Source of the DNA: Bacteroides timonensis
Lineage (GTDB): Bacteria > Bacteroidota > Bacteroidia > Bacteroidales > Bacteroidaceae
Reading direction: 5' to 3'
DNA length: 64,000 nucleotides
Assembly (NCBI RefSeq): GCF_000513195.1
Contig: NZ_CBVI010000115.1
Span: forward strand, 1-64,000
Numbering within the stretch: position 1 is the first letter of the stretch; each line of letters begins with the position of its first letter. Shown piece by piece: positions 19-61,137 of this stretch. Made by a program: the position numbers and the translations under genes. Under the pieces are notes generated by a model. That model was not told the origin of the DNA. It worked only from the letters and a program-made list of their open reading frames with translations, and made no database searches.

Positions 19-128
19 AGAAGGTTGCGGCTGAAAAGGGCGACACCATTTGCCCGAAAGGGTGTAGCCATGTGCCCCAAATGGTGTAGCCATGTGTTTA
101 AAAGGGTGTAGCCTTACCGGATAAAAGG
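19..128. repeat. 22-nt tandem repeat array, five degenerate units
   Basis: Units start at 19, 41, 63, 85 and 107, exactly 22 nt apart. The clearest two (63 and 85) share TGTAGCCATGTG and end in AAATGG or AAAGGG. The first and last are more degenerate. Bridging the unit junctions is a 17-mer imperfect palindrome, for example AAATGGTgtaGCCATGT, followed by 5 nt. The left-hand neighbour is outside the window, so its transcriptional context is unknown. Function unknown. Three more arrays with the same period but other sequences occur in this window. Confidence 0.75.
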
Positions 129-20516: not shown

Positions 20517-21599
20517 TTATCGAGGCAGCTTACTCCAATCCAATTCCGCGGCATGTATATAGCCATTGCCCGAAATTTTCTCTTTCCAGTGGTTGCTTAC
20601 ATATTCACTTTGCTGAATACGCGAGTCGCATTGCTGGAAGGTTACATTTATTATCCACATCGGTTGTGAGAGCCATTCCACATTGATGTAAGAGAAAGCT
20701 TTAACCACATCGCTGTTTTCTTCGATAACACTGAAGAATTTGGTGAACCACTCATCCCATATCTTCCGGGCTATCTCAGGCTTTTTGATATCCGCATCGA
20801 AGTAAGTCTGTCCCTTCTGGAAGACGGGAGTCGATTCGGCTATGAATACCGGTTTGCCTTTCATCCGGGCAAACTCGATCATCACCTGATCCGGCTGACC
20901 GAAATAAGAGTAGGCACACCAGTCCACATATTCATCTCCCGGATACCATTTCTGCATATCGGACAAGGGAGTACCATCTCCTTTGGACTGCCATACATAA
21001 GCTACGTTGCGGATGCCTGCCGCATCAAAATGATCTTTGATGTGTTTGTAGGCGGGGATATACGTTTCGGGTACATAATGATTCCAGTCTGTACCGTCGA
21101 ATTCATAGCCGATACGCAGAAAGACGGGACGGGGAGCAAGCTTCTTGAACCATTCACCTATTATGTCCAGCTTCCGATCATATTTGCCGGATGCTATGTC
21201 CGATTCATTTCCCACAATGGCAAGCCCTACAGCGATCATTGAGTTGTTGAAACGTTCTGATTGAGGGTATAAGTTGGCACAACAATCGCCTGAACCCCAA
21301 TTGTCGATATCATAAAGACCGGATACTTTATCGGTGTCGCTACCGCCCAGTCCCAGGTAAACAGTTATTCCTGCCGGAGTCCGGAAATGATCGCAGTAGC
21401 CCTCATTGTATTGTTCCAGTCCGCCTACTGCTCCTAAATCCTGACCGATGAAGACAAAGCATTGGCCGTCTTCAGGTTCGTATTTGGAGAGTTCCCGTCC
21501 GTCAGGTTCCGGGGCGGGGGTATCGTGCTCTTTATTCTCACATCCGATACAGGAGGTGAAAAGGAGGTGAAATATGATATACTTTAGTATTGATTTCAT
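20517..21599 (-). CDS. GH26-like glycoside hydrolase lipoprotein (copy 2)
   Basis: 360 residues; N-terminal lipoprotein signal with Cys17 (FTSC) or Cys20 as anchor. The catalytic barrel is clearly paralogous to the 16520-17578 protein: CFVFIGQDLGAVGG, LRIGYEFDGTDWNHY (acid/base Glu166), GDEYVDWCAYS and VFIAES (nucleophile Glu255). Two related enzymes in one locus suggest division of labour, for example one on the surface and one in the periplasm, or different chain lengths. Same GH26 caveats apply: mannanase, beta-1,3-xylanase or lichenase cannot be separated by eye. It follows SusD after a 278-nt gap filled by a repeat array. Confidence 0.7.
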   Translation of the reverse strand: MKSILKYIIFHLLFTSCIGCENKEHDTPAPEPDGRELSKYEPEDGQCFVFIGQDLGAVGGLEQYNEGYCDHFRTPAGITVYLGLGGSDTDKVSGLYDIDNWGSGDCCANLYPQSERFNNSMIAVGLAIVGNESDIASGKYDRKLDIIGEWFKKLAPRPVFLRIGYEFDGTDWNHYVPETYIPAYKHIKDHFDAAGIRNVAYVWQSKGDGTPLSDMQKWYPGDEYVDWCAYSYFGQPDQVMIEFARMKGKPVFIAESTPVFQKGQTYFDADIKKPEIARKIWDEWFTKFFSVIEENSDVVKAFSYINVEWLSQPMWIINVTFQQCDSRIQQSEYVSNHWKEKISGNGYIHAAELDWSKLPR

Positions 21600-21696
21600 G
21601 CTTAATAAGAGTTTATAGTTTCAATAAATTCATTACTATACCGATATGCGTTATATAGGAGTGAACAGAAGAACGTAACTTCTTGTGTGATAGTGT

Positions 21697-21848
21697 ACTT
21701 AGTGTTCCACTAAGATTAGTCGTAGTGGAACACTAGTTCAGTCGTAGTGGGAAGTGGTTTCAGTCGTAGTGGGAAGTGGTTTCAGTCGTAGTGGGAAGTG
21801 GTTTCAGTCGTAGTGGGAAGTATGTTCAGTCCTAATGGGAATGTAGCT
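21697..21848. repeat. 22-nt tandem repeat array, six direct units plus one inverted unit
   Basis: Six direct units start at 21717, 21739, 21761, 21783, 21805 and 21827, all 22 nt. Three are identical (starting CAGTCGTAGTGGGAAGTG) and the outer ones diverge. The segment 21697-21718 matches the inverse complement of the first unit at about 18 of 22 positions and holds a perfect 7-3-7 palindrome, CTTAGTGttcCACTAAG. The array fills the gap between susD and the GH26 gene inside one operon, so it is transcribed. The 5-nt spacing of palindromes rules out CRISPR. Confidence 0.9.
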
Positions 21849-21877
21849 CATTACCGCACCACGTTGAATTCATCCCA

Positions 21878-23566
21878 TTACTGCCTCAGATTCGGATTCT
21901 TCTCTGTTTCACTGTGAGGAATGGGTAGATAGTAATTGTTTTCATTGAATACCCGTTCCTCAATGGTTACTATTTTATAGTTATTATTGTTTCCGTCAAA
22001 CTCAACCGTCATTCCCTTGATGGGTGCCCGTAGAGTCGTTGCTTCTTTCCAGCGACGCAAGTCGAAGAAGCGGTGTTCTTCCAGGCACAACTCTACGCGG
22101 CGCTCATTGTGAATACGGATACGCATCTCGTCTTTGGATAAACCTTCCGGTAATCCCGGTTGGCCTGCACGGTCGCGAACTTCGTTGACGGCATCGTACA
22201 CACTTTTGTCCGGTGCAGCCAATGCCTCATTCTGCGCTTCGGCATAGTTCAGTAACACTTCTGCATAGCGGAAATAAGGCCAGTTGTTATCCTGCGCAAA
22301 GGCTCCGGTGTATAAGTCGGCAGATGCTCCGTCATATTCCTGCATCATTTTGCGAAGCCCATACCCGCAGCGTGCGCGGTAATCGTTGGGCAGACAGTTG
22401 CCGCTCCAATCCGGGTTTTGCAGATGGCGATGCATAAGTAACTGGCTTCCTTCCCAGTAACTTCCATGATAAAGCAAAGTTTGATAGAAGCGTTTGTCAC
22501 GGTTGGCGTATGGATCCTGCGGATTGTAAATGGATGTAGGGTCGGTTATCAGTTTACCGTCTGTGGTTTCGTAAGCATCGGCTAAGTTCTGGGTGGGATA
22601 TAAACCGTTCCAGGAACCGCGGTCGGCATCGGCAGGGTCAAGACTCCATTGCATGTGGATGTTATGCGTGATTTCCGGAAACTGGAAGCGGCGCTCAAAG
22701 ATAATCTCCGTGTTGGCATTCGATTTGTCGAAGAATAAAGAACCGTAGGCATATTCACCGTTGCGGTAAAGATGATGTACTCCCAGAGTCATGACAGCTT
22801 GTGCGGCTTTGGCGGCATCTTCCCAACGCTCTTTAGAGTTGGAGGCATTGTTGAGCGGGCTGGCAAGATAGAGTAGGGCACGGGCTTTCAGCGCCAGGAA
22901 GGCACCACGGGTGGCACGCCCTTTCATGGCATCGGAAACGGTCGGGTCAAGATCTTCCGCATAGTTATCGCTCTCGGTGGCAATGAAGTTTATCAATCCT
23001 TCGAAATCGGTGGCCGGTACCAGTAGATTGTCTTCCAGTTGCTGAGCTTCCGTAATCAACGGTGCCCGTCCGAATGTCCTGGCAAGGTCGAAGTAACAGA
23101 ATGCCCGCAGGAAACGTGCTTCCGCTTCGTAATATTTCTTTTCGGTCGGTGTCAGCACCACGTCTTTGGTGTCCGGAACGGCGGCAATTATCAGGTTACA
23201 TTTGCGGATAATGCTGTAATTGCTCTTCCATATTTCATCGATGAACGGAGTGCTTTGCGCTGTGATCTGCCCTGTATTGAACTGATTTACATTTGCATCG
23301 AACTTGCCGTCAAAGTCGTCGGCACCGGCATCGAAGTTACCGCCGAAAGCGGCAGCCCAGTCTTGATCCCATCCCTGCGTATTACGGTTGAAGCCGCATA
23401 CCAGTGTACCGTACGTATTGGCTACGAATTGATCGATAAGCTTTTTGTCCTGCCAAATCAAGTCGTCGGAGACAAATGTCGTAGGCTTGATGTCCAGCAT
23501 ATCAGTACAGGAAGTCATGCTGATAGCGGCAAGTAGTATGAATAGGGGTTTAAATATTTCTTTCAT
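21878..23566 (-). CDS. SusD/RagB-type glycan-binding lipoprotein
   Basis: 562 residues; lipobox SMTSC with Cys20. Typical SusD features: N-terminal DMLDIKPTTFVSDD, TPR-like helices with ARFLRAFCYFDLARTFG, and the C-terminal signature EVRDRAGQPGLPEG...IRIHNERRVELCLEEHRFFDLRRW. SusD proteins sit on the outer membrane and lid the cognate SusC channel. The gene follows its susC partner by 12 nt. The ligand is probably the substrate of the two GH26-like enzymes downstream. Confidence 0.95.
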   Translation of the reverse strand: MKEIFKPLFILLAAISMTSCTDMLDIKPTTFVSDDLIWQDKKLIDQFVANTYGTLVCGFNRNTQGWDQDWAAAFGGNFDAGADDFDGKFDANVNQFNTGQITAQSTPFIDEIWKSNYSIIRKCNLIIAAVPDTKDVVLTPTEKKYYEAEARFLRAFCYFDLARTFGRAPLITEAQQLEDNLLVPATDFEGLINFIATESDNYAEDLDPTVSDAMKGRATRGAFLALKARALLYLASPLNNASNSKERWEDAAKAAQAVMTLGVHHLYRNGEYAYGSLFFDKSNANTEIIFERRFQFPEITHNIHMQWSLDPADADRGSWNGLYPTQNLADAYETTDGKLITDPTSIYNPQDPYANRDKRFYQTLLYHGSYWEGSQLLMHRHLQNPDWSGNCLPNDYRARCGYGLRKMMQEYDGASADLYTGAFAQDNNWPYFRYAEVLLNYAEAQNEALAAPDKSVYDAVNEVRDRAGQPGLPEGLSKDEMRIRIHNERRVELCLEEHRFFDLRRWKEATTLRAPIKGMTVEFDGNNNNYKIVTIEERVFNENNYYLPIPHSETEKNPNLRQ

Positions 23567-31152: not shown

Positions 31153-31214
31153 GAATCAGTAGTTGAATTATGTTCATTTCTATACGGATATGAACATAAT
31201 TCATCTACTGATTC
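31153..31214. repeat. 25-bp inverted repeat between two operon genes
   Basis: Arms 31153-31177 and 31190-31214 pair over 25 bp with one mismatch, around a 12-nt loop. The right arm overlaps the last codons and stop of the GH10-GH43 gene (stop at 31205). No T-run follows on the minus strand, so it is more likely an mRNA processing or stability hairpin than a full terminator. Confidence 0.8.
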
Positions 31215-37321: not shown

Positions 37322-37396
37322 ATCTTGTTTATCTTTTTATTCCTTCTGCAGATAAGCCGTAAATCTACCTCTTAGCTTAACCGCCAGCTTACTTCT

Positions 37397-37457
37397 GGAC
37401 AAATCGTTAGTCTAACCTGGACAAATCGTTTGTCCACCCTGGACAAGTCGTTCGTCC
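37397..37457. repeat. 22-nt tandem repeat array, three palindromic units
   Basis: Units start at 37397, 37419 and 37441, 22 nt apart. The middle unit is a perfect 7-3-7 palindrome, GGACAAAtcgTTTGTCC; the flanking ones (GGACAAATCGTTAGTCT and GGACAAGTCGTTCGTCC) are imperfect versions. A 5-nt spacer separates them. The array lies between the GH35 stop and the acetylesterase start, inside the putative long operon. Confidence 0.85.
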
Positions 37458-37472
37458 AACTCTTAAAATATG

Positions 37473-48329: not shown

Positions 48330-48381
48330 GTCCCGCGGTTGTTGATGCCCGAAAGATAAATAATTAAGTGATAAATCCCAT

Positions 48382-48526
48382 ATTCCTTTCACTTATATCA
48401 TTTATTCCTTTCATCTGCATCAATAAGAGGGCTGATGCAAAAGGTGGCATCTTTTGCTGTAAAAGATGCCATCTTTTGTATCATTAGATGCTACCTTTCG
48501 ATGTAAAAGATGCCATCTTTTGCAAT
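48382..48526. repeat. 22-nt-spaced repeats with 7-3-7 palindromes
   Basis: Two copies of ATTCCTTTCA at 48382 and 48404 are 22 nt apart. Then follow four units at 48439, 48461, 48483 and 48505, again 22 nt apart. Units two and four are the perfect palindrome AAAAGATgccATCTTTT plus a 5-nt spacer; units one and three are degenerate (AAAAGGTGGCATCTTTT, ATTAGATGCTACCTTTC). Confidence 0.9.
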
Positions 48527-61030: not shown

Positions 61031-61065
61031 ATATTTTCGTTGATTGGGTGAGCACGTTTATGTAT

Positions 61066-61137
61066 AAAAAAAAAGAAGGCTATCTATCCCAGACAGCCAA
61101 TCTTTATTAACCTTAAATCTAATACCATGAAAAACAC
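61066..61137 (-). ncRNA. candidate small RNA (about 70 nt) with intrinsic terminator
   Basis: Read on the minus strand: a -7 box TACATTTG (61143-61150), predicted start near 61137, an unstructured stretch containing CATGGTATTAGATTTAAGG, then a terminator hairpin (GGCTGTCT-GGGAT-AGATAGCC, 61078-61098) and nine T (61066-61074). No ORF of note lies within it. The unstructured part looks familiar to me as a motif recurring in Bacteroides genomes, but I cannot confirm this here. It could be a free-standing small RNA or a premature termination product of the MFS leader. Confidence 0.5.

Follow-up and report, generated by a model that had tools for sequence, protein, structure and literature searches.

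Intergenic tandem arrays of Bacteroides genomes have a spacing peak at 22 nt and belong to many unrelated sequence families, their spacing is fixed across variable spacers in two families followed genome-wide, and between species they change in unit steps. We tentatively read the arrays, at somewhat less than an even chance, as helix-phased DNA sites that would be shown on one helical face to a hypothetical binding protein, and prefer this DNA-level role over a fixed-step mutational origin, which we rate lower. If spacing is what is kept, and not sequence, these junk-like repeats mark either a new DNA-binding system or a mechanism of duplication in 22-bp steps, and the possible DNA-binding system would span a dominant gut genus.

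The arrays of the window and the period across genomes

The window (the whole 64,000-nt stretch of a Bacteroides timonensis contig that was analysed) carries arrays at the four sites of the original prediction, with TRF giving a period of 22 at each of them and all six rows of an ungapped self-match (lags 8–119) falling at lag 22, 44 or 66. The first, of about three 22-nt units at 46..113 (plus strand; TRF, self-match), is not significantly palindromic, and genome G057 has an array there too. At 37.4 kb, three palindromic units of the TGGACAAATCGTTTGTCCA type (37395..37458, plus strand) were recovered by TRF, self-match and the palindrome test, whilst at 48.4 kb TRF reports two 22-nt units at 48381..48422 and four palindromic units of the AAAGATGCCATCTTT type at 48433..48522, both on the plus strand. 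The focal array consists of a leader hairpin at 21701..21734 (plus strand), in which an inverted unit pairs with the first of the direct units (34 nt in all) to give a 12-bp stem with a 10-nt loop, and then five direct 22-nt units (TTCAGTC...) at 21737..21846 (plus strand; TRF, self-match), starting at 21737, 21759, 21781, 21803 and 21825; this is the layout foreseen, six direct units and an inverted one. Its predicted place between susD and a hydrolase gene was likewise recovered, both genes being on the minus strand: a SusD-like gene upstream in the operon (21878..23566; Pfam PF07980, 3e-54) and, downstream, a weak match to glycoside hydrolase family 26 (20517..21599; PF02156, 2.9e-6). The focal array had been called the longest, which holds within the window but not in the wider samples, where longer arrays occur (447 bp in genome G040; 155 and 137 bp in the window's own genome). 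No array scoring at least 19 appeared in mononucleotide-shuffled sequence, for which 11 of the 41 stretches were shuffled.

A histogram of repeat periods, the check that the original prediction had itself proposed, peaks at 22 and upholds the claim of a constant period with free sequence. In the window's own genome (G000; 857 kb sampled, window included) the ungapped self-match found 58 intergenic tandem arrays with periods of 10–69, of which 40 lie at 21–23 or 44: the periods are 22 (32 arrays), 23 (3), 21 (1) and 44 (4), with 11 (3), 33 (2), 14 (5) and one array each at 10, 12, 15, 17, 20, 28, 32 and 42. One array, of 7-nt units (TATGATT; L046:11388-11497), fills the gap between two genes, and other period-14 arrays sit at gene ends in G000. 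Samples of 14 other Bacteroides genomes placed 27 of 35 intergenic arrays at 21–23, 44 or 46, and G040, sampled more widely (480 kb), had 29 intergenic arrays, with periods of 11 (7), 19 (1), 21 (2), 22 (4), 23 (5), 42 (1), 44 (1) and 46 (2), and six at 65–66 from one stretch, a CRISPR-like array at L204:16613-17561 with a 65–66 nt period. A period of exactly 22 nt, as first claimed, holds for the four window arrays; periods of 21 and 23 and an 11-nt class occur as well. Samples from the same order, drawn mainly from other families, had 6 of 19 arrays at 21–23, in those from the same class one of seven arrays shared the period class, as an 11-mer array, and none of six arrays from other Bacteroidota classes had the period; 250 kb of E. 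coli K-12 held no intergenic array. With gaps allowed, TRF yields 84 intergenic rows for G000, 37 of them with period 22 and 13 with period 11, and in other Bacteroides 23 intergenic rows at 22.

The sampling was non-random: contigs C91, C134 and C14 of G000 were chosen through matches to family A, the dispersed family of the focal array, the exceptions being C1, which has such a match too, and part of C2, and stretch L070 of G073 was taken for the family A copy in it. The 22-nt peak does not depend on family A, because that family makes up only 5 of the 30 clustered arrays, but G073, G042, G057 and G018 are not independent of the window, since they were sampled partly or wholly at orthologous regions.

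The 30 clustered arrays (those with a period of 22, 23 or 44 in G000) fall into 17 unit clusters at a threshold of at least 17 of 22 matches, random pairs rarely exceeding 15, and 27 of 49 22-nt consensus units are non-redundant. This number of clusters speaks against a single ancestral 22-nt minisatellite or MITE family that spread and diverged past recognition with its period inherited, as do the existence of the 11-nt class and of 23-nt arrays, and one array without a relative in four genomes; the dispersal of families (family A occupies 12 places in G000, short inverted matches excluded) and a distant likeness by eye between some clusters (ACGACTGAA, AACGAC) are in its favour, and we consider such an ancestor very improbable. 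One step size for unrelated units would also follow if tandem duplications of ~22 bp arise whatever the sequence and without function, by paired nicks two turns apart with fill-in or by slippage favoured by an in-register helix, an origin we regard as possible though doubtful. TRF found no peak at 33 or 66 among ORF-borne repeats, which counts against this origin, although protein constraint could hide the peak; the argument is weakened by those 22-nt arrays that TRF places inside called ORFs (4 of 57 rows for G000), a figure to be read with the ORF caller's preference for the longest ORFs, by which some "coding" arrays (e.g. L019, L191, L203) may be intergenic.

Fixed spacing with variable spacers

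We also measured spacing without a repeat finder, by whole-genome pattern searches in which any gap of 0–30 nt was allowed. Among the matches listed for pairs of CTCCGTA, 100 of 100 in G073 (101 counted) lie at 11 (68), 22 (25) or 33 bp (7) and 41 of 42 in G000 (86 counted) are in register, whilst G040 has 205 matches as a count, with spacings not listed. The motif is not arrayed in G021, G086 and G060 (2, 6 and 0 matches), and a reversed-pattern control gave 0–2 matches per strand per genome. Adjacent [CG]TCCGTA spacings of up to 80 bp in the sampled Bacteroides sequence are multiples of 11 in 61 of 65 cases, those off register being 7, 42, 42 and 63. The GATGCCATC family (GATGCCATCTT...AAGATG), which includes the four palindromic units at 48433..48522, behaves alike: of its 36 matches in four genomes, 35 lie at 22 bp and one at 23, a count that includes orthologues and the same place on both strands, and its 15 distinct spacers differ on average at 5.2 of 9 positions. 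A third family, TGGCAA...TTGCCA, is weaker: spacers of 4 nt number 7 among those listed in G057 (39 counted) and 1 of 40 in G042, these being the two genomes with listed spacers (G000 and G073 were not listed). CTCCGTA 11-mer arrays sometimes have an inverted array after them (L032:16162-16243, L190:16372-16616 and elsewhere). The forward-to-reverse spacings include 26 (5), 37 (4), 43 (4) and 32 (1), which form pairs that differ by 11, and also 18, 27 and 75.

Local intergenic sequence has an indel-to-substitution ratio of 0.07–0.11 between species (one indel event per 9–14 substitutions), diverged spacers should therefore show some indels, and the scarcity of off-register copies is notable; the missing indels are nonetheless over-counted, because spacers copied by expansion, orthologous places and both-strand matches are not independent. 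The survival of exact spacing in diverged spacers argues against a purely mutational origin, as a duplicator would not maintain spacing afterwards.

Several units had been noted as palindromes, and among 63 arrays from the samples of Bacteroides and of the order, 26 do have a significantly palindromic unit; the remaining 37 do not, and palindrome lengths vary. In the 26 palindromic arrays the difference per unit pair is 0.143 in the arms and 0.454 at other positions (arms lower in 21 of 26, p = 7e-5), whilst the 37 non-palindromic arrays showed no conserved core (0.139 vs. 0.164, p = 0.28). Homogeneous arms with variable spacers are explained by the mutational origin too, in which template switching between arms would keep palindromes alike while loops and spacers drift. 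A clear 11-nt sub-period was not found in the unit consensus (0.283, se 0.023). The proposal that spacing, not sequence, is held thus draws on the palindrome arms against their spacers and on the register of the CTCCGTA and GATGCCATC families, with the third family as its weaker part. Two causes had been suggested for it. Two helical turns fit, because an 11-bp class with variable spacers exists too; negatively supercoiled DNA in cells has a helical repeat close to ~11.0 bp per turn, and 22 bp make two turns. A hairpin of fixed size did not stand up and was ruled out as a general cause, given the varying palindrome lengths, the 37 arrays that are not significantly palindromic and focal units that do not fold.

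Read as helix-phased DNA, the sites would be of three sorts, 7-mers (CTCCGTA for example), palindromes of ~14–23 bp and longer non-palindromic units, with their copies set whole helical turns apart (11 or 22 bp; 21–23). The arrays would act as DNA, a hypothetical DNA-binding protein or topology factor may bind them cooperatively, and copies would probably be won and lost by unit steps, out-of-phase copies not being kept. Against helix phasing, tandem duplication alone would give the sequence likeness of units within an array, and the mode at 22, with so few arrays at 21, is narrower than the tolerance of the helix would demand.

Family A, turnover between species and known systems

Family A, to which the focal array belongs as one copy, is a dispersed MITE-like element that carries a hairpin leader. 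The element at 21626..21852 (plus strand) comprises a ~75-bp tail, the hairpin leader, the 22-nt units and a right end; this extent is the longest shared with a copy elsewhere, 227 bp in G057 (L129), other copies being shorter. The copies have in common the tail, which extends furthest in the closest ones, the hairpin leader and the right end, with between one and six units, and so lie dispersed between genes as a leader, tandem 22–23 nt units and a tail. Family A occurs in 10 of 99 genomes of the genus, its own included and some by weak matches, and among 71 genomes drawn from the order in its own genome only; the focal array had no match in plasmids or phages (blastn, words of 11) or in E. 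coli (megablast). In the family A match list 17 of 47 matches have no locus, five of them short inverted. Pairing of the leader hairpin is kept in 85.3% of cells across 21 distinct copies and covariation is weak: all 500 shuffles fall short on three of the five measures, but not on the count of two-sided pair changes (62 of 500) or on that of additional pair types (485 of 500), and with the 3' side slid by one column 5–6 double-change cells still remain vs. 7. The count used 21 distinct copies of 30: seven with identical hairpins were dropped, as were L141, which the regular expression had put in the wrong place, and L130, which has lost units and next to them a changed 3' arm, a copy that speaks against a strict hairpin. 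Orientation to genes is mixed, with 11 same-sense, 6 antisense, 10 convergent, 3 divergent and 1 unresolved among 31 loci of 4 genomes, several of them orthologous. As for terminal inverted repeats, the ends by eye are imperfect GATATGAGCTATAT / ATATAGCTCATTAC, and no clean empty site or target-site duplication was found. Several copies of family A (flanks of L129, L144 and L154) have another repeat beside them, CACAGAGTAACACTGAG, which advances in steps of ~10 nt.

Unit number varies between species in whole 22-nt steps, which bears on the question of variation between strains that the original prediction had raised. At the focal locus there are 5 direct units in G000, 4 in G073 and 2 in G042, and in B. 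gallinarum the family A element is absent at the susD locus; among other loci, matched by shared flanks by eye, one has 6, 5, 4 and 3 units, others have 4 and 3 or 4 and 2, and two are invariant. At 37.4 kb G073 has two units whose sequence has changed, one being perfectly palindromic, and G042, G057 and G018 lack the array, whilst the array at 48433..48522 is nearly identical, with four units each, in G000, G073, G042 and G057. One slot, at 31.1 kb, is filled differently from genome to genome: by a palindromic element in the window, by a 22-nt array in G073 and by an unrelated 23-nt array in G042, whilst G057 has nothing of the kind there. A search of four genomes turned up no relative of the 23-nt array. 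The occupant in the window is a long near-perfect palindrome at 31153-31214 (GAATCAGTAGTTGAATTATGTTCAT...ATGAACATAATTCATCTACTGATTC), whose loop resembles the family A tail by eye. Fixed-step mutation explains the unit-step changes, an array found once in four genomes, the replacement of arrays in one intergenic slot and the little positional preference described below; the four units of the 48.4-kb array kept in four species count against it. In bacterial minisatellites (VNTRs) unit number varies by whole units, and the arrays resemble them in this variation between related genomes but differ by having one period across unrelated units, which to our knowledge is not expected of minisatellites.

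The nearest known system is BrickBuilt, a MITE/minisatellite of Porphyromonas gingivalis described, in part of its published account, as 23-nt tandem units with leader and tail segments that are always intergenic, with 19 dispersed copies in one strain and a strain-dependent unit number; the same part mentions 22-nt tandem repeats for P. gingivalis strain W83 (PMC4596501). The likeness extends to Bacteroidales, tandem units of 22–23 nt, leader and tail, intergenic position, dispersal and varying unit number. BrickBuilt differs in being one family with one unit sequence and terminal repeats like those of IS5-family elements, and unrelated families with a common period and variable spacers at fixed spacing, as in Bacteroides, are not found for it in that part of the account (PMC4596501). 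IS5-type terminal sequence (GAGACC...) was not seen by eye at the family A ends. REP and BIME elements, according to part of a published account (PMC3733652), carry a GTAG or CGTC tag, are linked to RAYT transposases and have variable dimer spacers, most of 20–100 bp; they too are small intergenic palindromic repeats of several families, some tandem or paired, but unlike the Bacteroides arrays their spacers are not locked to multiples of 11. By eye, no GTAG/CGTC tag is common to the 26 palindromic consensus units (GTAG occurs in single units), and a RAYT link was not found: G000 has one Y1_Tnp gene with no array in its surrounding 3.3 kb, where none of ten motifs from five families is present more than twice. 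Plasmid iterons are direct repeats ~22 bp apart, protein-bound on one helical face, which adjoin a replication gene and belong to one family per replicon; the arrays differ in being chromosomal and of many families, and the focal array, with susD and the GH26-like gene as neighbours, has no replication initiator gene adjacent. In open-literature titles and abstracts, a scope in which subscription papers mostly do not fall, we found no description of a common period among unrelated intergenic Bacteroides arrays.

Genomic placement and a role as DNA or RNA

The expected enrichment of arrays in glycan loci did not materialise: 12 of 40 arrays lie within 8 kb of SusC/SusD genes, as does 26.7% of intergenic DNA (p = 0.6), and the impression that arrays accompany glycan genes arose because the window itself is a polysaccharide locus. 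By region, 44 arrays are co-directional, 15 convergent and 10 divergent, where region lengths would predict 57, 16 and 27% (p ~0.05). Arrays also lie slightly closer to gene 3' ends (p = 0.05), and the location bias is marginal. Their presence in all three kinds of region suits a role as DNA better than one as RNA.

Transcribed palindromes of the REP/BIME type could stabilise or process mRNA and so tune susCD against downstream genes, which we judge improbable. Consistent with such RNA hairpins are the significantly palindromic arrays, the leader hairpin kept in most copies, the modest RNA fold of the 37.4-kb array (z = −2.39), its changed but perfectly palindromic unit in G073 and the slight lean to gene 3' ends. 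The focal direct units do not fold as RNA, however, the fold of the focal array (z = −3.25) coming from the leader hairpin, and the majority of arrays are not significantly palindromic; no intrinsic terminator was found at the focal array. Single-sided stem changes (13 G-U, 8 A-C, 11 other) show no clear G-U bias on the mRNA strand, compensated double stem changes number 2 vs. 95 single ones, RNA hairpins do not need a fixed spacing in multiples of 11, and 10 of 69 arrays lie in divergent regions. A DNA-level role is preferred because of the lack of SusC/SusD enrichment, of a terminator and of a focal-unit fold, the mixed regions and the absence of a clear G-U bias.

Extended to the genus, helix phasing would make Bacteroides carry unrelated site families locked to multiples of 11 and read by one or more hypothetical proteins, a reading we think doubtful, as is the figure that goes with it by extrapolation, perhaps hundreds of intergenic arrays in each large genome. 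If true, it would amount to a chromosome-organising or topology-sensing system, and we know of none of such kind in the phylum.

At gathering score Rfam returned nothing at the arrays; the one match in the window is FopS, a Bacteroidetes family of paralogous sRNAs, at 61065-61137 on the minus strand (78.4 bits).
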